From Sphingobium aromaticiconvertens (GTDB lineage Bacteria; Pseudomonadota; Alphaproteobacteria; Sphingomonadales; Sphingomonadaceae): a stretch of 64,000 nt of DNA. The stretch spans positions 124,001 to 188,000 of the forward strand of contig NZ_JBANRJ010000002.1 of NCBI RefSeq assembly GCF_037154075.1, read 5' to 3'. The notes beneath the pieces were generated by a model, which saw nothing but the letters and a program-made list of their open reading frames with translations, was not told the origin of the DNA and ran no database searches. The position numbers and the translations under genes were made by a program. Positions 15,477 through 30,953 of the stretch are shown here, one piece after another. Position 1 is the first letter of the stretch. The number at the start of each line of letters is the position of its first letter.

Positions 15477-16481
15477 TTATGCTCGTTTCCGGACGTCGTT
15501 GAGCATCATGATCAGCGGGTCAGCCGGAGGTCTGAACTTGCCTGGTTTGATAGCCGGCGCCCCGTGCGCAGCGAGGATTTGCAGCTTTTCTTGGGGGTCA
15601 GCGCGCAGATAGGCTTCCGTGCTCTGGATGCTGGCATGCCCGAGCCAGAGCGCCACTTTGCGGATGTCGCCGGTCGCAGCAAGCGTGTGCATTGCGCAGG
15701 AATGCCGGAGCACGTGAGGCGTGACCCGCTTGCGTAGCAAGGACGGCTGCTTCTTCGCGGCCGTGGCCACATGCTTGGCCAGCCTGAACGCAAATCCGTC
15801 ACGGCTCATTGGTTCGTCGTTGGCGTTGAGGAATATCTCTAGCGCGTGACATCGCGGCCTGACGGCGAGCCAGGCCCGCAGGGCTGCCTGCGTTTCGCGC
15901 CAGAGGGGTAGGACGCGCTCGCGTCGGCCCTTGCCGACGATGTGGACCGTGGCGAGCGAACGTTCCGGAAAGTCTTGCATTTGTAGCGACAGCAGTTCGG
16001 CGACACGCAGGCCGCCAGCATAGGCGAGATGTAGCATAGCGCGATCCCTCGTACCCAGGCGGGAACGGGGATCCGGTGCATCCAATAGCGCGGTGATCTC
16101 GTCCCGTGTCAGATAATCGATCAGGGTCGTGTCGGTCCGCTTAGTCGGCACGGAACGGATACGTAGCGCGAGGTCGAGGCAGACGGGGACGCGATACTCG
16201 ATGTAGCGGAAGAACGCCCGGATCGCCGCGAGCCGGGCGTTGCGGGTTCTGGGACTGTTCTTACGTGCATTTTCCGCATGGTCGAGGAAGGCCATGATCA
16301 ACTCAGGGTGAAAATCCTCGATCGTCAGATCGGTGGGCCGTCGCTTGAGCCGATCGGCCGCGAAGCGGACCAGCAGCGCGAAGCAGTTCGCATAGGTCGT
16401 CACCGTGTGCGGGCTGACATTGCGCTCGCGGGGCAGATGATCGCGCAGGAACGCGGCGAGATGGGAAGCGAGCGCGGTCAT
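15477..16481 (-). CDS. RIT tyrosine recombinase, third gene
   Basis: A 334-residue XerD-like integrase. The N-terminal SAM-like domain (SPHTVTTYANCFALLVRF) is followed by a catalytic domain with the first arginine in GGLRVAEL, HVLRHSCAMH (HxxR), LGHASIQST and the tyrosine in EAYLRAD, so the full catalytic set is present. The ATG at 16481 overlaps the stop of the middle recombinase (ATGA), indicating translational coupling and fixing the start. It is the last gene of the trio operon and ends 35 bp inside the left inverted repeat. Trio proteins are thought to act together to move the element. Confidence 0.85.
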   Translation of the reverse strand: MTALASHLAAFLRDHLPRERNVSPHTVTTYANCFALLVRFAADRLKRRPTDLTIEDFHPELIMAFLDHAENARKNSPRTRNARLAAIRAFFRYIEYRVPVCLDLALRIRSVPTKRTDTTLIDYLTRDEITALLDAPDPRSRLGTRDRAMLHLAYAGGLRVAELLSLQMQDFPERSLATVHIVGKGRRERVLPLWRETQAALRAWLAVRPRCHALEIFLNANDEPMSRDGFAFRLAKHVATAAKKQPSLLRKRVTPHVLRHSCAMHTLAATGDIRKVALWLGHASIQSTEAYLRADPQEKLQILAAHGAPAIKPGKFRPPADPLIMMLNDVRKRA

Positions 16482-17392
16482 GCTGCGTCTCCCAGGAAAA
16501 GCTGCTCGCCGGCGACGGCAATGTCGCGAAGCAGGACCGGTGTTGCCTCGAGATACCAATATGTGTTGGCGACATCGGCATGACCCAGATAAGCGCTGAG
16601 CGCCGCCATATGATGGCGGATCGCCTCCCGATCGCGAGAACAGGACTCCAGTGACCGGACGGCGAAAGTGTGCCGCAGATCGTGGATGCGGATACCCGGC
16701 GTTCCGGTTGGTCCACGGAAGCCTAGCTTGCGAGCCAATCTGACGAAGACGATGTGAACAACAGTCTGGTGGGGTGCCCGCCCTCTCGTAGTGACGAACA
16801 GGTCATCACCGCTGGCGCCCAACCTCCTGCGGATATCCAGATATGTGTCCAGAGCCTCGCGCGTCGATGATAGGATCGGCACGAGACGTTGCTTGCCGAA
16901 CTTGCCGTTGCGGACGATAAGACCATCGTCTGCGATATCCCCGCGCTGGAGTGCCAGAGCCTCGGATATCCGCAGCCCCGTCGTTGCCAGCAGGCCAAAC
17001 AGATAGTGGTAGGTATATCGGCTGATTTTGCCTTCCGGCGGAAGATCCAGGGCAGCCTGCATAATCGCTCCAAGCTGCTCGGGCTCGATGATGTGGGGCG
17101 TCGGGCGACGACGCTTCCCACTCCCGAATACGCCCGCTGGCGGCACCTCATGCTGCTGATCCTCGGCATGGGCATAAAGGCAAAAGCGGCGCAGATGGTC
17201 GAATCTGTCCCGGGCGACGTTCTGGGAACTGGCTGACCGGCACCAATCATATAGCCTCTCGGCTTTGATGTGCCGATCGCCAAAACCATCAGCATAGCGG
17301 GCAAATTGTCGAAGCAACCGGTCCTGCACGTCGAACTTGCGGCCGAAACTGCGATGCAACGCGACATAGCGTTCGATCTGAGTGTTCATCAT
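16478..17392 (-). CDS. RIT tyrosine recombinase, second gene
   Basis: A 304-residue tyrosine recombinase. Catalytic residues are visible in TTGLRISEALAL (Arg I), IHDLRHTFAV (HxxR), YLGHADVANT (His) and YWYLEA (Tyr). The ATG at 17392 overlaps the TGA of the upstream recombinase (ATGA at 17389-17392), and its own stop overlaps the next start, so all three are one translationally coupled operon. It is shorter at the N-terminus than the first gene product. It appears fully intact. Confidence 0.85.
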   Translation of the reverse strand: MMNTQIERYVALHRSFGRKFDVQDRLLRQFARYADGFGDRHIKAERLYDWCRSASSQNVARDRFDHLRRFCLYAHAEDQQHEVPPAGVFGSGKRRRPTPHIIEPEQLGAIMQAALDLPPEGKISRYTYHYLFGLLATTGLRISEALALQRGDIADDGLIVRNGKFGKQRLVPILSSTREALDTYLDIRRRLGASGDDLFVTTRGRAPHQTVVHIVFVRLARKLGFRGPTGTPGIRIHDLRHTFAVRSLESCSRDREAIRHHMAALSAYLGHADVANTYWYLEATPVLLRDIAVAGEQLFLGDAA

Positions 17393-18930
17393 GCCGCGTC
17401 CCCCGGCCATTCCTGAGCGACCTTAAGCAGCATCGGTATGTCGACCTTGGCGTAGATGGCGGTCGTCGCCGGGGAACGGTGACGCAGGATCGTGCCGACC
17501 GACTCCAGACCGGCACCGGCGCGCAGCATCCGTGTGGCCAGCGAATGTCTAAAGGCGTGGGCACCCGTCGGCACGCCCTCAATGGCGCCTCGATCAAATA
17601 CACGGGCTACGATACCGGCGATCTCCGCTGACGAACTGAACGGTCGGAAAGGAGGTTGCACGCGCACGAACAACCGCTCCTCGCTAATCGGCGGCCGTGC
17701 CTGCTCCAGATAGTCGAGGATCGCATCCCCGACATCCTGGGGAAGCGGCAGGCGGTCGGGCCGCCTGCTCTTGCCACAAACCCGTAGATATCCTTCGTTC
17801 CAGTCGATATCCGTCAGGTGTAGCTGCCAGATATCGCCCGCTCGCAGGCCGAGCCTGGCCAGCAGCAGGATGATGGCCTTGTCGCGGATCTCCACCGCGG
17901 TGCCGGTCTGGCAGGATGCGATGATCTTCTCGATCGTGGCCTCATCCATGTAGCGTGGCAGGGTGCCGAGTCGATAGCGCCTTATGGGCGGAAAGGCGTG
18001 CTGGAGAGCTGGGGCGCACTCTCCGCGTGAGACGAGAAAGCGCACATAGCTCCGCATGATGCCGGCGATGGTCGATGCGGAACCGGGTGCCTCAGTGATG
18101 CGGTGGCTGACGATCCGCCTGATAACGGCCGCGTCAATATCCGACGGTGGGTCGAGCATGGGAAGCCATCGCTTCACCTCTCCGCAGTAGCGCCGGATCG
18201 TCCCGGCAGAGCTGCCGCAATGAGTCGTTAGCCATGCCTTGTAGGCGGCCAGATCTTCGTCTTGATGTTGCCGGCTATGCGCCTGCGAAAGGATATGCCG
18301 ATCACGCAGAAAACCGAGGAAGCGCCGCGCGCCTTTGCTGCGTCGTAACGGTCCGTGGCGGCCGATCAGCGTTCCGCGCTTGCGGTATACCGGGCACCGA
18401 CAATCGTGGCCGGCGTACTGGATGACATGTTCGTCAGTGACATCATCCCAACGCAAGCGGGAGATCCGAACCCAGGCAGCAAAGTGTGCTGCCTCGGATC
18501 GATAGCTCTTGATGCTTGCTGCGCTGTAATGCTCCTGGACGAGAAATGGCGCGTACTCCGCCAACAGTGTGTCCATCTGATCGACATCATCGGGTACGTC
18601 GACAATGCCCAGATCCTCCAGGAAGCGGACGAAACGCCGGACCTTGCTGGTGAACTTTGGTCGGTTGGGCTCATGCCGAGAAAAGCCCTGACAGCGACAC
18701 TGATGCTTCTCGAAACGTCGTACGACGGGGTCATCGACCGCCGACACTGCAACGTCCTGTTGCCCGATCCAGAACAGGAAATGGCGAGCGGCGGCTTTGT
18801 AAAGCGCAGCTGATCCCGCCGCGCTCCCCAGAAGAGAAGAGTGGAAGGCGGTGGATAGAGCTTCTGAGGTGGGAGTGACTCCGGCCCAAGGTTCTGGGCG
18901 TCCGAATGAAACAATCGTCTTTGGCAACAT
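17389..18930 (-). CDS. RIT tyrosine recombinase, first gene
   Basis: A 513-residue recombinase, the longest of the trio. The N-terminal half has a cysteine/histidine-rich stretch (HQCRCQGFSRH; HDCRCPVYRKRG) that may bind metal. The C-terminal catalytic domain shows LGLRAGDIW (Arg I), AHAFRHSLATRM (HxxR), ILRHRSPATT (His) and AIYAKVD (Tyr). The ATG at 18930 is preceded by GGAGG at 7 bases and is preferred to the ATG at 18966. Transcription starts just inside the right inverted repeat and reads through all three genes. Confidence 0.82.
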   Translation of the reverse strand: MLPKTIVSFGRPEPWAGVTPTSEALSTAFHSSLLGSAAGSAALYKAAARHFLFWIGQQDVAVSAVDDPVVRRFEKHQCRCQGFSRHEPNRPKFTSKVRRFVRFLEDLGIVDVPDDVDQMDTLLAEYAPFLVQEHYSAASIKSYRSEAAHFAAWVRISRLRWDDVTDEHVIQYAGHDCRCPVYRKRGTLIGRHGPLRRSKGARRFLGFLRDRHILSQAHSRQHQDEDLAAYKAWLTTHCGSSAGTIRRYCGEVKRWLPMLDPPSDIDAAVIRRIVSHRITEAPGSASTIAGIMRSYVRFLVSRGECAPALQHAFPPIRRYRLGTLPRYMDEATIEKIIASCQTGTAVEIRDKAIILLLARLGLRAGDIWQLHLTDIDWNEGYLRVCGKSRRPDRLPLPQDVGDAILDYLEQARPPISEERLFVRVQPPFRPFSSSAEIAGIVARVFDRGAIEGVPTGAHAFRHSLATRMLRAGAGLESVGTILRHRSPATTAIYAKVDIPMLLKVAQEWPGDAA

Positions 18931-23119: not shown

Positions 23120-23866
23120 ATGACCGTGGCAAAGACCACCGATAAACCGTCGCCCGCCGACACCATCACCAATGCGATCATCGACAGACTCGAAGCGGGC
23201 GTACGCCCTTGGGCGAAACCATGGCGGCCGGGCCTTGGCGGCCGTCCCCTTCGTGCGACCGGCGACCCGTATAAGGGCATCAATTGCTTCTGGCTGTGGC
23301 TCTGCGCCGAAGGCGCCGGCTACCATTCTCGCACCTGGATGACGTATAAACAGTCACAGGCGCTGGGTGGCCAAGTCCGCGAAGGCGAGCGGTCGCAGAT
23401 CGCCATCTTTTACAAATCGTACAGCAAAACCGTGGAGTCGCCCGTTACCGGCGACACGACCGACGAAATGCGACGCGTGCTGCGATCCTACGCTGTCTTC
23501 AATGCCGATCAGATCGAGGGGCTGCCGGAGAAATTTTATCCAAGCCCCCTCAGCGTGGTGGCTCCCGACGACGATCTGCCGGATCGCGCAGAGCGCTTCC
23601 TCGATGCCTTTCCGGCGAGGGTTCACCAGTGCGGCGATCGGGCCTTCTACGACCGTGTTGCCGACAGCATCACAATGCCGCCCGTCGCGTTGTTTTCCAC
23701 CCGTGCCTATTTCGCTTCGACGTTAGCGCATGAGGCAGGGCATTGGACCGGCCATCCTGACCGGCTAAACCGAGAGTTTGGCAGGAAATTCGGCGACAAC
23801 GCCTATGCTTTCGAAGAGCTTTGCGCCTTATCTGGACAGTCTGCGCCGCCCGCAACATTGCAGTAA
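23120..23866 (+). pseudogene. ardC-like gene, 5' part, interrupted
   Basis: Encodes the N-terminal ssDNA-binding part (ADTITNAIIDRLEAGVRPWAKPWRPG, NCFWLWL) and the zincin active site HEAGH (about residues 204-208) of an ArdC-like antirestriction protein. Native sequence ends at FEELCA (23827); the remaining 12 codons come from the inserted element. The missing C-terminus (EMTSALLGADLG onward) is at 30732-30953. The ATG at 23120 directly follows AGGAGA. ArdC proteins protect incoming DNA from restriction. The truncated protein retains the metal site but lacks the last helical region, so activity is doubtful. Confidence 0.8.
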
Positions 23867-23890
23867 GGTCGGCGATGGACGCCCACGGTA

Positions 23891-23954
23891 GGCAGTAATC
23901 AGGCTGGCCGTAGCGCTGACCCAAGAGCTGGCGGAGGCCAGCCTGATAACTGCC
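23891..23954. repeat. 19-bp inverted repeat near the left end of the element
   Basis: GGCAGTAATCAGGCTGGCC (23891-23909) and GGCCAGCCTGATAACTGCC (23936-23954) are inverted with one mismatch and a 26-bp spacer. They lie between the left terminus and the first recombinase gene, so they could be recombinase binding arms or an operator. Confidence 0.65.
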
Positions 23955-24022
23955 GGGCCATAGAGCGCATCGGTGTGAGGTCAGCTTCCGGGTGGGGGGT
24001 CCGGGGGGAGGGTTTCGCGCCG

Positions 24023-25372
24023 GTGTCGATCATTACTGTTTGCGAGCGCCGCGAGGCCAAGGGTCTCGATGCGCATGTGCCGCTGATCCTGCGCGGTGAC
24101 GCGCTCTATGATCCCGATCTGGATCGCTTCTTTCTCGACCTGCCGCTGTCGGGGGTCCGCTCGCGGCACTCGCTTCGCGCCTACGCCTATGATGTTGCGG
24201 TCTGGCTTCGCTTTCTCGATGCCTGCGGCAAGACCGTGTGGGCTGCGACCCGCGACGATGTCGATGCCTATCATCGTGAGCGACGCCGCGACGAGGCCGA
24301 TCACCGGATCACGGCGGCAAGCTGGAACCGGGCTGTCGCCAGCCTCGATCGCCTCTACCGCTGGGGCGAGCAGCAAGGGCTGATCGCCGACGCGCCGTTC
24401 AGCCGCCGCGCCGTGTGGCAACCGGCGCAGGGCGGCGGTCGCGGCATGATCGCGGCGCGCAACGACGCCTATGAACGTGTTGCCAGGCGATCGGATGTGC
24501 GGTTCGTCACGATGGACGACTACCACATTTTCCGCGAGGTCGGCCTGCGCGGCCTCACCCCGGACGGCACCGAGCGCTCCGGCGCTCGCGATCGCAACGG
24601 GCTGCGCAACGCGCTGTTCGCCGACCTTCTCGTCACCACTGGCCTGCGTCTTGAAGAGGCGTCGGGCCTGCTCGCCGATGAGCTTGCGGCCATCGATCAC
24701 GACCACGATCAGGCTCAGCAGCTTTGGCTGCGCCTGCCGCCGCCGCTCACCAAGGGCGACCGGGGACGCAGTGTGCTGGTCCCGCGTCGGCTGCTGCGTC
24801 AGATCGCCGCCTATGTCGCCGTCGAACGCGCCGCAGGCGTGACCAAGTTCGCCGCGCGCGACGGCGCGGCCAAGCTCGAACGACCGATCCCTGTCACCCG
24901 CGCCGGTCTCGACCGCATGCGCGATGTCTGCACCCCGGAGGAACGATGCCGCCTGATCCTGTGCGACGAGGATGGACCGCCCCACGAGCCGGCGGCGCTA
25001 TGGCTGACCGAGGTCGGGCAGCCGGTTCGCCCCAACTCGTGGGAGGTGATCTTCACCCGTGCCTGCAACCGGTGCGCAGAGAACGGTTTGCCGCTGTCGA
25101 TCAGCCCACACCAGCTTCGCCACACATTCGCAGTTCATATGCTCGCCTTGTTGATCCAGCAGCGACTGCGCGAAGCGGCATTGCCGGCGGGGCCGGCGGA
25201 GAGCTATCGGCTGATCCTCGGCGACCCGCTGCAACAGGTGCAACGCCTGCTCGGCCACGCGAGCCTCACCACCACCTATATCTACCTCGATCATATCGCG
25301 ACGCGCGCCGATACGGTGGACGCGGCCGTCGAGGAGCTGCTCGCGCTGCTGCCGGGACCGCAGGGCGCATGA
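24023..25372 (+). CDS. Tyrosine recombinase 1 of the ardC-borne element
   Basis: About 449 residues. The N-terminal core-binding domain (SRHSLRAYAYDVAVWLRFL) precedes a catalytic domain with all usual residues: TTGLRLEEASGL (Arg I), SPHQLRHTFAVHM (HxxR), LLGHASLTTT (His) and YIYLDH (Tyr). The GTG at 24023 follows a GGGGGGAGGG tract; a GTG at 23975 is also in frame, so the start is uncertain. The stop overlaps the next start by ATGA. This is the only member of the trio with a canonical active site and probably performs strand cleavage. Confidence 0.82.
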   Translation: MSIITVCERREAKGLDAHVPLILRGDALYDPDLDRFFLDLPLSGVRSRHSLRAYAYDVAVWLRFLDACGKTVWAATRDDVDAYHRERRRDEADHRITAASWNRAVASLDRLYRWGEQQGLIADAPFSRRAVWQPAQGGGRGMIAARNDAYERVARRSDVRFVTMDDYHIFREVGLRGLTPDGTERSGARDRNGLRNALFADLLVTTGLRLEEASGLLADELAAIDHDHDQAQQLWLRLPPPLTKGDRGRSVLVPRRLLRQIAAYVAVERAAGVTKFAARDGAAKLERPIPVTRAGLDRMRDVCTPEERCRLILCDEDGPPHEPAALWLTEVGQPVRPNSWEVIFTRACNRCAENGLPLSISPHQLRHTFAVHMLALLIQQRLREAALPAGPAESYRLILGDPLQQVQRLLGHASLTTTYIYLDHIATRADTVDAAVEELLALLPGPQGA

Positions 25373-27156
25373 GCGGGCATCCCCGCAAGGGCCGGCCTGT
25401 CGCTTTCGCGCCGATCACGCCGGAGTCCGTGCAGCCCGATCCTGTGCTCGGCCTCAAGTTCACGATCGAGGCACGGCATGGCGGAACGGTCCTGATCGAT
25501 ATGACTGGGCTCGTTCCTCGCCCACTCGCCATCGCCTTCGCGGGCGCGCTACGTCGGTCAGCGGCGCTCGGCGGCCCCATCGGTGCGGCCAGCGTCATCA
25601 AGCAGTATGTAAATGCCTACCGCCTGTTCTTCGCCTGGCTTGGCGATGACGCGCTGAACGTGGCTGGCGTCAGCGACCTGCGCGCAGTCCATATCGATGG
25701 GTTCGCCTCCGCGCTCGAACAGCGCGGGATGGGCGCGATCCACCGGCACATAACGGTCGGCAAGATCATCAACACATTGCGCGCGATCGAGGCAGACCGG
25801 CCCGATCGGATCGCGTCCGACCTGCATGAGCGGCTGCGCTACACGCTGGCCACATCGGCGGGCCGCTCGACCCCGCGCGATGCTTATAGCCCCTTCGTCG
25901 CCCGCGCGTTGCGCGACGCCGCGAGGACCGATGTCGAAGCGATGTTCCGCCGTCTCGGCGCCGACGACCGGACCGATGAGGGCGACCCGGTCATCGCCAG
26001 CGCGCGCGCCGATGTCGAAGCGATCATCGCGCGGCAGGGCTTTATCGTCGCAGACCAGCCCGCGCTGAAGAGCCTCTATTTCATGCGCATGCGGCGCGCA
26101 TTGCCGATCAGCACGCTCATCGACGACCTGCATGGCCGCCATCACCTGCTTGCGCGCGATCTGCCGGCGCTGCTCGTGTTGCTCACGCTCGATACCGGCC
26201 TCGAGCCCGAGTGCCTGAAGACGCTGACCGTGGATTGTCTCACCAACCCCCATGCCGGCACGGTGGAGCTGCGCTATCTCAAGCGCCGCGCTCGCGGCGC
26301 CGAGCATAAGAGCATGCGCGTCCGCGACGGCGGTGGTGGCACGCCTGGCGGTCTTATTCGTCGCCTGATCGAGGTCACGGCGACTGCCCGCACGCATCTA
26401 AACGACGATCGTATTTGGGTTTATCACAACGCTGGCGGCCTGCGGGCAGGTATCCGCCACCCGACGGAACGGATCGATGCCTGGGTGGCGCAGAACGATA
26501 TTGTCGATGACGACGGCAAGCCGCTCCACCTGCTGCTCTCCCGGCTCCGCAAGACCCACAAGGCGCTATGGTACACCAAGACCGAGGGGCATATGGCCCG
26601 CTTCGCGGTCGGCCACTCGCGCGAGGTAGCGGCGCGCCACTATGCTGATCTGCCGTCGCTCCGGCCCCTGCACGAGACGGCCGTCGCCGACGCCTTCCGC
26701 GCAGCGGTCGCCGCCGCGATGCCGACCGTGCTTCCGCCCACCGCCGAGCAGGCGTTGCGCAAAGCGCCCGATCAGGCCGAGCCGCTGATGCCGCTGGCTA
26801 CCGTGGGTCCGTTGCTCGACGGCGAACAGGATGTCTGGCTCGCCGCCTGCGCGGGCTTCCATAACAGTCCCTTCGCCGAGGCCGGTTCGCCCTGTGCGCA
26901 GCCCTTCTGGGGCTGCCTTGATTGCCCTAACGCCGTCATCACCGCGCGCAAGCTCCCCGCGATCCTGGCTTTCCTCGTCTTCGTCGAAGAGCAGCGGCTG
27001 AGCCTGCCCGCGACCGACTGGGCGGCCAAGTTCGGCCGCGTCCATGCCCGCATCACCGCCCAGGTCGTGCCGGCCTTCTCCGATGCCGTCATCGCCGATG
27101 CGCGCCGGCAGATGGAGAGCGAGCGGCTTTATCTGCCGCCGGAGGCACGCGCATGA
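25369..27156 (+). CDS. Tyrosine recombinase-like protein 2 of the ardC-borne element
   Basis: A 595-residue integrase-fold protein. It has an N-terminal SAM-like region and a catalytic-like domain, but box I reads DTGLEPECLKTL where the family has TGLR, so the first arginine appears replaced. Later motifs are SRLRKTHKALWY, VGHSREVAA and RHYADL, with His and Tyr in place. The C-terminus has a cysteine cluster (CAQPFWGCLDCPNAVI) likely to bind zinc. Start ATG at 25369 overlaps the upstream stop (ATGA) and its stop overlaps the third gene, so expression is coupled. It may be a partner subunit. Confidence 0.78.
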   Translation: MSGHPRKGRPVAFAPITPESVQPDPVLGLKFTIEARHGGTVLIDMTGLVPRPLAIAFAGALRRSAALGGPIGAASVIKQYVNAYRLFFAWLGDDALNVAGVSDLRAVHIDGFASALEQRGMGAIHRHITVGKIINTLRAIEADRPDRIASDLHERLRYTLATSAGRSTPRDAYSPFVARALRDAARTDVEAMFRRLGADDRTDEGDPVIASARADVEAIIARQGFIVADQPALKSLYFMRMRRALPISTLIDDLHGRHHLLARDLPALLVLLTLDTGLEPECLKTLTVDCLTNPHAGTVELRYLKRRARGAEHKSMRVRDGGGGTPGGLIRRLIEVTATARTHLNDDRIWVYHNAGGLRAGIRHPTERIDAWVAQNDIVDDDGKPLHLLLSRLRKTHKALWYTKTEGHMARFAVGHSREVAARHYADLPSLRPLHETAVADAFRAAVAAAMPTVLPPTAEQALRKAPDQAEPLMPLATVGPLLDGEQDVWLAACAGFHNSPFAEAGSPCAQPFWGCLDCPNAVITARKLPAILAFLVFVEEQRLSLPATDWAAKFGRVHARITAQVVPAFSDAVIADARRQMESERLYLPPEARA

Positions 27157-29315
27157 CCATACCCGCCCATGCCCAAGAGCCTGCCTTCGACGATCGCCCC
27201 GTGCTGGCGAGCGCGCCGCTCAAGGAGGGCCACGCCCGCGAGGAGCTGTCTCGCGTCGGCGACCCGAGCTGGGATCTCGGTCTCGCCGTATTCCGCGAGA
27301 ACGCCCGGCGCTGCCACGTCACCGTGCATTTCGACGTGCTCGAACATGCCGATGTGCAGGCGGCGATGCGCGCCTATCTCTACGCCCGTCTCAACGTCGA
27401 TCTTCCCGGCTACCGCCCGAAGCTGCCGCCGGCGAGCATTCGCCAGGCATTCAACCGTGCCCGCCGGTTCTTCGCTTTCGCCCGTGAGCGGCTCGGACGG
27501 CTCGACGTTTCCCGTATCGATCAGGCATTGGTCGATGCCTATGCCCGGCACCTTCGTGCCGATCCGGCCCGGCGACCCGTCATCGTCGGCCACCTCCTCG
27601 AAGTGGTCCCCGATCTCTATCACTATCGTGACCACCTCGCTGGCGGAGGCCTTGCATTCGAGCCCTGGGCCGGACAGGCGCCCGCCCGCGTCGCGGGCTA
27701 CCGGCATGTCCGGGAGAACCGCACGCCGCGGTTCCCGGAAGAGGTCATCGCCGCGCTGCTCGCATGGTCGTTGCGCTACGTCACCGTCTTCGCTGACGAC
27801 ATTCTCGCAGCCCGTCGCGAGCTTGATCGGCTCGAAGCGCGCCGGGATCGTCTCGTCGCCGCCGACTCCGGCCTCCCGGACGCTGATCGCCGGCAACGTC
27901 GCCGCACCCGCCTGAAGGCCTATTTCGGTCGCCGACGCCGCGAGGGGCGCGGCGCACCGATCTGGGGCACCGCTCATAACGGCAAGCTGCGCGTCGACCC
28001 CAACACCGGCGCCGTGACCCCACCGATCAACGCCCATCTCCTGCATCTCCATGCCGGGATCGACGTGCAGGCCGAGCCAGGCGCGCATCTCCTGCTGACC
28101 GGCGGTGAAGCGAGGTTGATCGACGCAGTGGCGGCCGAGCTGGGGGTAGAGGTCGGCGGCATGGACACGCCGATCTCGATCGATCCCGAGAGCGGTCGGC
28201 CATGGCGCGAGCGCTTCGACGCGAAGACTCTCGCACACGAGGAACGGGTGCTCCAGGCCGCCGCCTATATCGTGTGCGCCTACCTGACCGGCATGCGCGA
28301 CTGCGAGGTGCAGGCGATGCGGCGCGGGTGTCTCTCTATCGCGCGCAGTGAGGACGGCCTGATCGAGCGGCATCGCATCCGATCGACCATCTACAAGCGC
28401 CGGGCGGCCGTGGGCGAGGCGGCGAGCTGGGTGACGATCGAGCCGGTCGCCGATGCGATCACGGTGCTCGAACGCCTGTCGGCAGGACCGGCGCGCGCCA
28501 GCGGCAGCGATACGCTCTGGCCGGTGCTGCGCGCGAGCGCCGTCTCCAAGACGCATCTGTCGAGCGAGGTGGTCCGTCAGCTCAACACCTTCCGCGATCA
28601 CCTCAACACCGCCTTCGGCAGCCCCGATATGCCGGTCATCCCGCCCGGTCCCGATGGCAAGCCGTGGCGCATCACGACGCGGCAGTTCCGGCGCACGATC
28701 GCGTGGCACATCGCCAACCGTCCGTTCGGCACCATCGCCGGCATGATCCAGTACAAGCACGCCTCGGTCGCCGCGTTCGAAGGCTATGCCGGGACCAGCG
28801 CTTCGGGGTTTCGCGCCGAGGTCGAGGCGCAGCGCCGGCTCGGTCGGACTGATGACCTGCTGGACTATTTCGACCGGCGTCAGGGCGGCGCATCGCTTGG
28901 AGGGCCGGCGGGACCGCGTATCGGGCGGACGCTCGACGATGCCGCCGTTCAACTCGGGCCATTGCCCGCCATGATCGCCGATCGCGCCCGCCTGCGCGTC
29001 ATGCTCGCCAGCGTCGCGCGCACCTTCCATGTCGGCCCGCTCGCGGATTGCTTCTTCGATCCCGCGACCGCGCTCTGCCTCAAGCGCGTGACGACCCCCG
29101 ATCCCGCGCAGCCACTCACCGCCCTGTGCGAGCCGACCCGCTGTCCCAACGCCTGCATCACCGTCCGCCACAGGCCGGCCTGGGAACGCGCGGCGGCCGA
29201 TGCCAGGGCGCATCTACGCGAACGGCGCATCTCCGATCTCCAGCGTCAAGCTCTCCAGCGCGAGCTCGATCGCCTGACCGCGGTGATTGCCGGGATCGAT
29301 CCTCCCGCGCCGTAG
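27153..29315 (+). CDS. Tyrosine recombinase-like protein 3 of the ardC-borne element
   Basis: A 720-residue protein, largest of the trio. Box I arginine is present (LTGMRDCEVQAMR). The usual HxxR is QFRRTIAWHI, a Gln for His change, followed by IQYKHASVAAFEGYAG, which supplies His and the likely Tyr. The C-terminus has a cysteine pair set (CFFDPATALC, CEPTRCPNAC) similar to that of gene 2. The ATG at 27153 overlaps the stop of gene 2 (ATGA). The altered active site and size set it apart from RIT proteins; it may serve in target choice or assembly. Confidence 0.75.
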   Translation: MTIPAHAQEPAFDDRPVLASAPLKEGHAREELSRVGDPSWDLGLAVFRENARRCHVTVHFDVLEHADVQAAMRAYLYARLNVDLPGYRPKLPPASIRQAFNRARRFFAFARERLGRLDVSRIDQALVDAYARHLRADPARRPVIVGHLLEVVPDLYHYRDHLAGGGLAFEPWAGQAPARVAGYRHVRENRTPRFPEEVIAALLAWSLRYVTVFADDILAARRELDRLEARRDRLVAADSGLPDADRRQRRRTRLKAYFGRRRREGRGAPIWGTAHNGKLRVDPNTGAVTPPINAHLLHLHAGIDVQAEPGAHLLLTGGEARLIDAVAAELGVEVGGMDTPISIDPESGRPWRERFDAKTLAHEERVLQAAAYIVCAYLTGMRDCEVQAMRRGCLSIARSEDGLIERHRIRSTIYKRRAAVGEAASWVTIEPVADAITVLERLSAGPARASGSDTLWPVLRASAVSKTHLSSEVVRQLNTFRDHLNTAFGSPDMPVIPPGPDGKPWRITTRQFRRTIAWHIANRPFGTIAGMIQYKHASVAAFEGYAGTSASGFRAEVEAQRRLGRTDDLLDYFDRRQGGASLGGPAGPRIGRTLDDAAVQLGPLPAMIADRARLRVMLASVARTFHVGPLADCFFDPATALCLKRVTTPDPAQPLTALCEPTRCPNACITVRHRPAWERAAADARAHLRERRISDLQRQALQRELDRLTAVIAGIDPPAP

Positions 29316-29484
29316 ACCACCCCGGCTGTTGGCGGAGTCCTGCGCCGGTCGGCGCGCCCGCGCAACGGCTTCGCCGTCCTTCGCTTCGCTGCGGCCCTGA
29401 CGGGTGCGCGAGCCCCCCTGTGCCCGGCGCGAACGGGCCTCCGCCGCCGGGGATGGTCCCCGGCGCGAGAACGGAGAACAGATC

Positions 29485-30351
29485 ATGTCAGCCTCACCAC
29501 GCTCAGACGTCTACGCTCGCGTCACGCAAGCGATCGTCGACGCCATCGAAGCCGGCACCGGCACCTGGCGCATGCCGTGGCATCATTCCGGCGCCGACGT
29601 CACCCGCCCGACCAACGTCGCCAGCGGCAAGCCCTATCGCGGCATAAATACGGTCTCGCTCTGGGCGGCCGCCTATGGCAGCGGCTATGCGAGCGGGGTC
29701 TGGGGCACCTATCGCCAGTGGCAGGCGCTCGGCGCGCAGGTCCGCAAGGGCGAGCACGCCAGCCTCGGCGTCCTCTGGAAGGAGTTTCGCGCGAAGGGTG
29801 ACGAAGCCAGCGACGATGATGGCGACCACCGACGGCTTTTCGCCAAGGCGTTCAGCCTGTTCAACGCCGATCAGATCGATGGCTATGCGCCCGAACCGGG
29901 GCCGGTCCTGCCCGAGAGCGAACGCCTCGCCGCCGCCGAAGCCTTCATCGCCGCGCTCGGCATCGATACCGTCTACGGCTCGGCCAGCGCCTATTATCAC
30001 ATCGCCGAAGACCGCATCCACATGCCGGATTTCAGCGCCTTCCACGACGCCCACGGCTTCTACGCCACCCATATTCACGAGGCAGCTCATGCCAGTGGCG
30101 CAGCCCATCGGCTCGACCGGGGTTTCAGCACCAAGTGGACCAAGCACGCGCTCGCCATGGAGGAAGCGACCGCCGAGCTGACCGCATCGTTCCTGCTCGC
30201 CGATCTCGGGATCGCGCACGAACCGCGACCCGATCACGCGGCCTACATCGCCTCCTGGCTGCAACTGCTCAAGGACGAGCCCCGGGCGATCTTCACCGCG
30301 GCGAGCAAGGCGCAGGCGGCGGCCGACTGGATGCACACCCGGCAGCCATGA
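29485..30351 (+). CDS. ArdC-like antirestriction protein (element cargo)
   Basis: A 288-residue full-length ArdC-like protein: an N-terminal ssDNA-binding domain (YARVTQAIVDAIEAGTGTWRMPW, KPYRGINTVSLW) and a C-terminal zincin-like domain with HEAAH at about residues 198-202 and a downstream MEEATAELTASFLLADLGI helix supplying the third ligand. ArdC proteins bind ssDNA and protect entering plasmid DNA. It lies in the same direction as the trio and 169 bp downstream; the ATG follows CGGAGAACAG. It is only distantly similar to the resident ardC it interrupts, so it is cargo rather than a duplication. Confidence 0.82.
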   Translation: MSASPRSDVYARVTQAIVDAIEAGTGTWRMPWHHSGADVTRPTNVASGKPYRGINTVSLWAAAYGSGYASGVWGTYRQWQALGAQVRKGEHASLGVLWKEFRAKGDEASDDDGDHRRLFAKAFSLFNADQIDGYAPEPGPVLPESERLAAAEAFIAALGIDTVYGSASAYYHIAEDRIHMPDFSAFHDAHGFYATHIHEAAHASGAAHRLDRGFSTKWTKHALAMEEATAELTASFLLADLGIAHEPRPDHAAYIASWLQLLKDEPRAIFTAASKAQAAADWMHTRQP

Positions 30352-30731
30352 TCCAGCAGCGACCAACGCTGAGCGGCCGATCCCTCGCGGGCTCGGCCGC
30401 TTCGTCGCGCATGGCGATGCGCGGGCTTCGCCCGCTCACCAGCGGACGCCGCTGGCGCGGCGGCGCTGATTTTTCGGGCTCCCTCGATGCGGGTCTGGTC
30501 GGCGCTCCCTGCTAGGCCCGCCACGGCGCGCCGCAAGCCCGGCTTCGCCGAGCTGCTCCATTTCATTTCGCCCCTCCGGGTGCGGCCCGCCGCTTGCGCG
30601 GGCCTCTCCGGTCGTTCTCGCCGCCCACCCCCGCCTCGGGGGAGCCATGGGGTTTTTGGGCAGTGCTCGAGGCACCGATGGTTTTCACCTTCCAACCGCC
30701 ATTTTTCGCTGGACTGTCAGGATATATCGCA
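30352..30731. other. Non-coding right end of the element
   Basis: About 380 GC-rich bases with several short hairpins and no convincing gene, ending in the imperfect terminal repeat at 30712-30725. I see nothing else in it. Confidence 0.5.
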
Positions 30732-30953
30732 GAGATGACGTCCGCCCTGCTTGGCGCGGATCTGGGCCTCCCGACCGCCCATATCGACGATCATGCTGCG
30801 TATATCGGCTCGTGGCTCGCGGTGCTGCGCAAGGATTCCCGCGCCATCATGACGGCTGCGGCAAAAGCCGAAGCGGCGGCGGCCTTTCTGCTCCGCGCAA
30901 CTGGCCTCGCCACGTCGGACGAAGCCCAGGAACAGATCCGTGAAGCAGCATGA
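30732..30953 (+). pseudogene. ardC-like gene, 3' part
   Basis: Seventy-three codons (EMTSALLGADLGLPTAHIDD ... YIGSWLAVLRKDSRAIMTAAAKAEAA) that complete the ArdC-like protein begun at 23120. Reading continues from the element sequence without a start of its own except an ATG at 30735. It is the displaced C-terminal helical region including the glutamate-bearing helix. Confidence 0.8.

Follow-up and report, generated by a model that had tools for sequence, protein, structure and literature searches.

The window analysed here, a 64,000-nucleotide stretch of a Sphingobium aromaticiconvertens contig, contains an ardC gene interrupted by a small transposon that carries another ardC as cargo. We conclude that this element is a D-less variant of the GInt-like transposons with an unusual coupling between target and cargo. 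Systematic transposition from one ardC to another is strongly supported by the sequence comparisons, and compensation of the target damage by the cargo ArdC is plausible. As a whole, the explanation of an ardC-specific small transposon that uses a D-less GInt-type A-B-C operon, would move from ardC to ardC and would compensate with its cargo ArdC seems very probable to us.

When compared with the empty site at base level, the insertion in the resident ardC is 6,904 bp long (window 23828-30731) and consists of the element (23828-30725) and a 6-bp footprint. The first-pass annotation had described a 6.9-kb segment that splits the resident gene after FEELCA, and this is exact, as the empty-site orthologues fit to the base. 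All features lie on the forward strand. The 5' part of the interrupted ardC (23120..23827) encodes the ssDNA-binding domain and the HExxH helix, ends with ...FEELCA, and continues in frame for 12 codons inside the element; the interrupted gene matches ArdcN at E 5e-33. Its last six bases are the attL spacer TGCGCC (23822..23827), the same as in the empty site. The element begins with the left terminal repeat TTATCTGGACAGTC (23828..23841), followed by a conserved stem-loop (23891..23954) and by gene A (24023..25372; 449 aa), for which an upstream start at 23975 is also possible. Gene B (25369..27156; 595 aa) and gene C (27153..29315; 720 aa) follow with ATGA overlaps at both the A/B and the B/C junction, and then comes the cargo ardC (29485..30351), which encodes an element-type ArdC of 288 aa with the motifs HEAAH and EEATAE. 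The element ends with the right terminal repeat GACTGTCAGGATAT (30712..30725), an imperfect inverse of the left repeat. Beyond it lie the attR footprint ATCGCA (30726..30731) and the 3' part of the resident ardC (30732..30953), which begins EMTSALLGADLG... and was recognized by its open frame and the empty-site comparison. Elements of the ardC lineage span 5.7-11.1 kb. Elsewhere in the window (15591-17952, reverse strand) there are three more tandem PF00589 recombinase genes (open frames of 441, 314 and 526 aa) that look like a RIT element, with an equal-scoring copy on contig C6.

An intact ardC with an empty site, which the first-pass annotation had proposed to look for, was found as an orthologue of the interrupted gene on pBAR4 (L110) and on pTSSC1 (L111), both plasmids typed as conjugative. 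Over the junction these orthologues read FEELCAEMTSALL, with TGCGCC as the spacer. Of 960 bases, the joined flanks agree with them at 914 when the attL spacer is kept and at 911 when the attR spacer is kept. Thus, the left 6 bp are the target's own and the right 6 bp (ATCGCA) are foreign to it. The orthologous ardC of S. baderi (L112) has been interrupted independently, with the same left spacer and a different footprint (GTTGCC). In Tn554 and in the strand-biased circularizing integrative elements (SEs), the 6 bp to the right are a footprint taken from the left side of the preceding insertion, according to the available parts of two reports (PMC10214605, PMC10782965). By the SE rule, the attR sequence ATCGCA would stem from the bases to the left of the element at its preceding site.

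The lineage was studied in 89 loci with protein C at least 62% identical, four from the window's genome and the others from relatives. These loci were recruited through protein C, as own-genome copies or, in the case of L112, through the target ardC, one scan for relatives contributing the best 80 of 160; as recruitment was mainly by protein C, the set is biased to relatives. The left junction has the form GARGAR-6N-GCN in 57 of the 58 loci where it is readable and the right junction the form NNNGCN in 56 of 57, the single exception at both being L024, which has an IS nearby. An ArdC HMM matched in the junction's own frame in 51/53 left and 52/54 right flanks of the lineage, the misses being L024 and L035 (N in its flanks). 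The same HMM matched 18/18 left and 15/16 right flanks of 18 further genome copies. The failing right flank is that of L154 (G114:C1:3341300-3355300), where the left flank is ardC and the right flank is not ArdC (IAEVGKPFVEARPG...), possibly through rearrangement between copies. The exact left-end pattern occurred 22 times in 8 of 298 genomes of the family, the window's included, each time (22/22) inside the ardC motif. Some strains have apparently been sampled twice (L167 is probably L041, L168 is probably L033, and G114 and G017 are probably strains of the plasmid records H7/H8 and H2-H4), and thus the 298-genome and multi-copy sets overlap the other sets. The metal ligands of R388 ArdC are H201, H205 and E229, the last in a helix with the motif Exx(A), according to the part of the structural report available (PMC7213743). 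By residue count in the alignment of cargo and R388 ArdC, E229 corresponds to the second Glu of EEL, and residues 231-232 (x-Ala) are encoded by the spacer. The alignments thus show the insertion site to be the codons E-E-L-(xA)-E in what corresponds to the glutamate helix of ArdC, which provides the third metal ligand. In pNL1 (L027, 2314-5623) the annotation indicates that the interrupted ardC is also split by an insertion resembling a group II intron reverse transcriptase. The element was also met in metagenome-assembled genomes labelled Microbacterium and Bacillota (L055, L105), where binning errors seem likely.

The target preference is repeated within single genomes. The window's genome holds four copies, each with an ardC cargo and each at the same codons of a different ardC; two of these have the same sequence, 98.9% identical to that of the copy in the window, and the fourth is about 82% identical to it. 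Nine ArdcN genes were found in this genome, four of them cargo, four interrupted and one intact on contig C6 with an open EELVAEV site, so that 4/5 of the resident ardC genes are filled by the element. The first-pass annotation had allowed that the pairing of an ardC target with an ardC cargo could be chance, and the three additional copies at the same codons of other ardC genes speak against this. Copies with zero mismatches were found in G114 (six), G017 (four), S15-1 (three), G122 (two) and G000 (two), and in the multi-copy genomes the identity extends over 6.5-9.4 kb, L152 sharing 8,886 of its 11,597 bases with the rest. Two Primorskyibacter copies are one base apart, and L009 and L010 are 72 bases apart. 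Six draft contigs (L030, L045, L059, L073, L076 and L090) consist of almost exactly one element each, as would be expected if identical copies are merged by the assembler. The presence of identical copies in different ardC genes of a single genome points to recent amplification, and replicative movement is likely, judged from these sequences; copy number alone is compatible with both replication and cut-and-paste.

The edges of the copies give further information on this movement. Left and right spacers differ in 37/47 lineage loci with both junctions readable, and almost all right-hand 6-bp spacers likewise code for xA, as if they came from an ardC. In the multi-copy genomes the right spacer equals the left spacer of another copy of the same genome in 13/21 cases, compared with a mean of 7.3 when the right spacers are shuffled among the 21 copies (P 0.0019). 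The clearest chain runs through rare hexamers from L038 to L037 to L039. Some links are ambiguous: left and right spacers are equal in 5/21 copies, the donor is absent from the genome for 8/21, L162 and L163 each name the other as donor, and common hexamers such as GTCGCC fit several copies. Together, these traces suggest that the element hops from ardC to ardC.

The three overlapping genes were originally all taken for tyrosine recombinases. The overlaps were confirmed, but by profiles alone only A scores, and B and C are included through their homology to a GInt-like operon. Gene A encodes a normal tyrosine recombinase according to NCBIfam, Pfam and PHROGs, with R209, K244, H363, R366, H412 and Y421 invariant in 10 sequences. 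B and C gave zero matches in Pfam, NCBIfam or PHROGs. B appears to be a degenerate relative, having Glu279 at the expected position of Arg I (motif assigned by eye) and retaining R394, H416 and Y425 in 15 sequences, and in the large protein C the residues R382, R510, R513, H536 and Y545 are invariant in 15 sequences (motifs also by eye). In blastp comparisons with the four-gene operon of Pseudomonas aeruginosa p3796A (L119; 377/556/616/170 aa), which we infer from its layout to be a GInt, A matched its counterpart at E 2e-14, B at E 8.5e-25 and C at E 3e-13, and B and C of L119 exceed the PF00589 cut-off. The kinship of B and C to recombinases rests on these two results, since hhalign was unsupportive (probabilities of 0.2 for A against B and 1.1 for A against C). 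The predicted structures of B and C (mean pLDDT 58.9 and 59.9) were too poor for use, and a PDB sequence search with C gave zero matches. A small fourth gene, D, is present in L119 and in the relatives L114-L118 and L175 (C 30-47% identical), and D of L115 has weak helix-turn-helix matches. A tblastn search with five D proteins (E <= 1) placed no match inside the elements of the window and 12 other loci, the few matches falling outside elements; the 13 loci comprised nine of the ardC lineage, three of the Agrobacterium type and one from Phaeobacter. A weakly supported branch (67/87) in the C tree has the D-less rows on one side.

The element had been thought to fit no known family. A, B and C are, however, homologous to the GInt-like ABCD operon, and the ends obey the 6-bp footprint rule of SEs and Tn554. 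With GInts the element shares the A-B-C order with homologous proteins (via L119), site specificity, a 6-nt exchange region and cargo between the operon and the far end. Unlike them, it lacks a ginD homologue in the loci searched, is only 5.7-11.1 kb long, has its target inside ardC, carries an element-type ardC and occurs in several identical copies in some genomes. In addition, GinC is without the first catalytic Arg, whereas C of the element keeps R382 and it is B that has Glu279. The available portion of the GInt paper describes ginD as essential in the GInt tested, the cargo as varied, the 3' end as AT-rich and the intermediate as circular (PMC5385486). That paper reports homologues in Alphaproteobacteria, where the SE survey, as far as its text was available, counts zero ginC-ginD blocks (PMC10214605). 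The element resembles SEs, which were compared by description, in its imperfect inverted C/C' ends, its 6-bp spacer and the recurrence of left-flank 6 bp at the right flank of another copy, and its partly degenerate second gene B is somewhat Tfp-like. SEs are described as having intA-tfp-intB-srap genes and a donor site that is not emptied by circularization (PMC10214605, PMC10782965, both in part). In contrast, our element occurs in Alphaproteobacteria, in which the SE authors state zero Tfp/Srap homologues in the available part of their survey (PMC10214605), and the fourth gene was not found in it. With Tn554, also compared by description, it shares a 6-bp footprint and target specificity (PMC10214605, in part), but it has three large genes and the small fourth gene was not found. 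Like RIT elements it has three overlapping recombinase genes; the RIT archetype, however, has proteins of 315-410 aa and 34-bp terminal repeats (PMC10214605, in part), compared with 449/595/720 aa and ends of about 14 bp here. Among the matches listed in the open-access literature, no title or abstract mentions an ardC-specific transposon. As TnpB, one of the Tn554 proteins encoded by tnpA, tnpB and tnpC, has about 630 aa, the original statement that the three proteins are far larger than those of Tn554 was probably exaggerated.

Between the left end and gene A the leader has a stem of 19 bp, 64-127 nt from the left end, in which compensatory changes keep 97.4% of cells paired (25 rows, 18 distinct). 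Eight pairs have two-sided changes, and the covariation score is 0.387 compared with 0.168 after shuffling; there are 43 cells with two-sided changes, compared with 16.4 after shuffling and no more than 6 in the slid controls. Of five stem measures, one (further pair types) was reached by 48/500 shuffles. Single-strand folds of six leaders gave z values from -7.7 to -1.3, L028 being the weakest, and Rfam at gathering thresholds gave zero matches. The alignment omits L012, L092 and L104; in L092 and L104 the longest inverted repeat is elsewhere or weak. As a guess, the stem-loop may block read-through from ardC into A.

The first-pass annotation had recognized a complete and distinct ardC as cargo, and this was borne out by the domain matches (ArdcN E 4e-37, MPTase-PolyVal E 3e-42), by the match of the cargo ArdC to R388 ArdC (6i89) at E 4e-56 and by a clade separate from the targets. 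The 55 distinct cargo ArdCs stand on one side of a 100/100 branch and all 31 targets compared outside it, although some targets have long branches, and cargo-type ArdC was found in 0/31 of the targets. The split was recovered in a second, faster tree from which L033_target and two partial cargos had been left out. Compared with eleven other cargos, the cargo of the window has dN/dS values of 0.16-0.35, somewhat similar to the recombinases (0.12-0.39); these ratios are rough because dS exceeds 1 in six of the eleven comparisons. Tree and ratios show the cargo ArdC as a separate ArdC lineage, by all appearances under purifying selection. That the trio and ardC move as a unit, which had been put forward for checking, is supported by the presence of the cargo ardC in 63/69 lineage loci with the right end identified. 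The opposite finding, the two apart, was partly made. Six of the 69 loci (L024, L043, L046, L087, L091 and L096) are without cargo ardC, L046 having no cargo gene and L024 being IS-disrupted. Conversely, among 82 plasmid records that encode a cargo-like ArdC we inspected six cargo-type ardC loci, picked because C was not listed for them: in L170 the element has suffered an internal deletion, in L174 a remnant of C is left, in L175 and L172 the ardC lies beside a trio, and L171 and L173 have it without a trace of the trio. The ArdCs of all six group inside the cargo clade. L170 (pEP2 of Sphingobium EP60837, 3818-7767) lies in ardC and has lost A, B and most of C, with the cargo ardC and a mutated right end remaining; it is possibly a non-autonomous form. 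In L084 (C 85%, cargo 58% identical to the window) and L051 (C 86%, cargo 95%) the cargo and the recombinases have diverged from the window to different degrees, so that elements seem to swap cargo modules. An altered site as a general basis for immunity of the cargo was rejected; most listed cargo sites differ at base -8, but L026, L027 and L104-L107 keep it.

A second, independent case of a cargo resembling its target was found in an Agrobacterium/Sinorhizobium lineage, hereafter the Agrobacterium lineage (L028, which is pTiBo542, L029 and L120). Here the element is inserted in a small plasmid gene at a related DNA core (EELRA|RAE), has neither D nor cargo ArdC, and carries a 57-aa ORF that resembles its target, with local alignment scores that, in four comparisons, 0 to 2 of 3000 shuffles attained and, when the core is masked, 2 to 45 of 2000. 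The 105-119 bp upstream of the target and of the cargo ORF are 77-88% identical in the three loci, and no third strong copy of this leader was found in the loci compared. In Bosea (L175, C 47%) the element has both D and a cargo-type ardC and is inserted in ardC at the same codons. The relative on Phaeobacter pP51_d (L113, 4109-16750) is 12.6 kb long, lies in ardC and carries metabolic genes, among them those for agmatinase and acyl-CoA synthetase; it extends 7 kb beyond C, and neither a cargo ardC nor D was found in it. L114 has an element-type ardC cargo, yet by its putative ends it lies in another gene. Clear homologues of the target were found in none of the cargos of L113, L115 and L116, and the cargo ArdC of L114 does not resemble the gene that the element apparently targets; the weak matches seen in L113, in L115 and in other frames were taken for GC-rich noise. 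In Mesorhizobium NZP2077 (L172, 7895-13114, reverse strand) a GInt-sized A-B-C-D operon (380, 569, 621 and 152 aa) adjoins a cargo-type ardC. We propose only tentatively, at somewhat less than even chances, that a lineage of recombinase transposons repeatedly acquires a homologue of the gene it breaks, and could in this way breach a conserved gene of its vehicle without loss of function.

In the mechanism that we favour, A, B and C would nick and join the ends to give a copy, as a figure-eight or a circle, that carries the left 6 bp of the donor, by copy-out and copy-in as proposed for SEs, and this copy would then be joined to a new ardC. A conservative cut-and-paste integrase element, with multiple copies arising from gene conversion or repeated arrival, is compatible with the sequences, and L009 and L010 do differ at 72 bases, but zero-mismatch copies in different ardC genes and chain-like footprints such as L038 to L037 to L039 make it unlikely. 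Targeting of ardC would put the element on travelling vehicles, since ardC often lies on conjugative plasmids (of 55 plasmid records with a target ardC, 36 are typed as conjugative). Finally, the cargo ArdC would supply an intact antirestriction or ssDNA-binding function impaired by the insertion, so that vehicle and element would keep the cargo. The earlier view that the element removes one antirestriction gene and supplies another holds in that the exchange of ardC for ardC is systematic, whereas removal is unproven: the cut is in the metalloprotease domain, and the E229A mutant of R388 ArdC still supports conjugation into P. putida, as stated in the available part of PMC7213743. As this mutant retains the effect on conjugation, compensation may be unnecessary.

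The same mutant, together with the ArdcN domain and HExxH retained in the interrupted gene, favours a safe site, where the cut after the third metal ligand spares the ssDNA-binding domain at low cost and the cargo protects the entering DNA of the element and does not replace the target. E229A is, however, a point mutant, whereas the interrupted gene loses roughly the final quarter of its product, and this may unfold the domain; nor does a safe site explain why the Agrobacterium lineage has a target-like cargo, and we regard this reading as somewhat unlikely. The cargo is not obligatory, which counts against our preferred explanation: 6/69 loci are without ardC, and L113 targets ardC without an ardC cargo. 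In another reading the element would be an ordinary GInt-like island with a random passenger, and ardC would coincide as cargo and target only through being common on alphaproteobacterial plasmids. The varied cargo reported for GInts (PMC5385486, in part), the other cargo of L113, L115 and L116 and the apparently different target of L114 with its ardC cargo favour this, but a random passenger would hardly be present in 63/69 loci as one ArdC clade under purifying selection, or have a counterpart in a sister lineage that carries the homologue of its own, different target, and we find this quite improbable. A role for the cargo ArdC in the transposition machinery, as an ssDNA-binding SprT-like protease that clears covalently stuck recombinase in place of D, is the most doubtful. 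ArdC does bind ssDNA and resembles Spartan (PMC7213743, in part), the cargo directly follows C in the window and D in L175, and elements that usually have an ardC cargo lack D; yet L043, L046, L087, L091, L096 and L113 are without cargo ardC, the Agrobacterium lineage has neither D nor cargo ArdC, and L175 has both. Replacement of D by ArdC is thus unsupported, given L175 with both and L028, L029, L120 and L113 with neither.

It seems that the element ties transposition to the conflict between restriction and antirestriction, and by homing on an antirestriction gene of conjugative plasmids it can ride them. The attR footprints record earlier hosts and can be read, if with some ambiguity. As a compact, D-less and multi-copy relative of GInts, it offers a system for studying replicative transposition of the kind proposed for SEs. 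The general idea at stake is that mobile elements may pay for the damage to their target by carrying a substitute.
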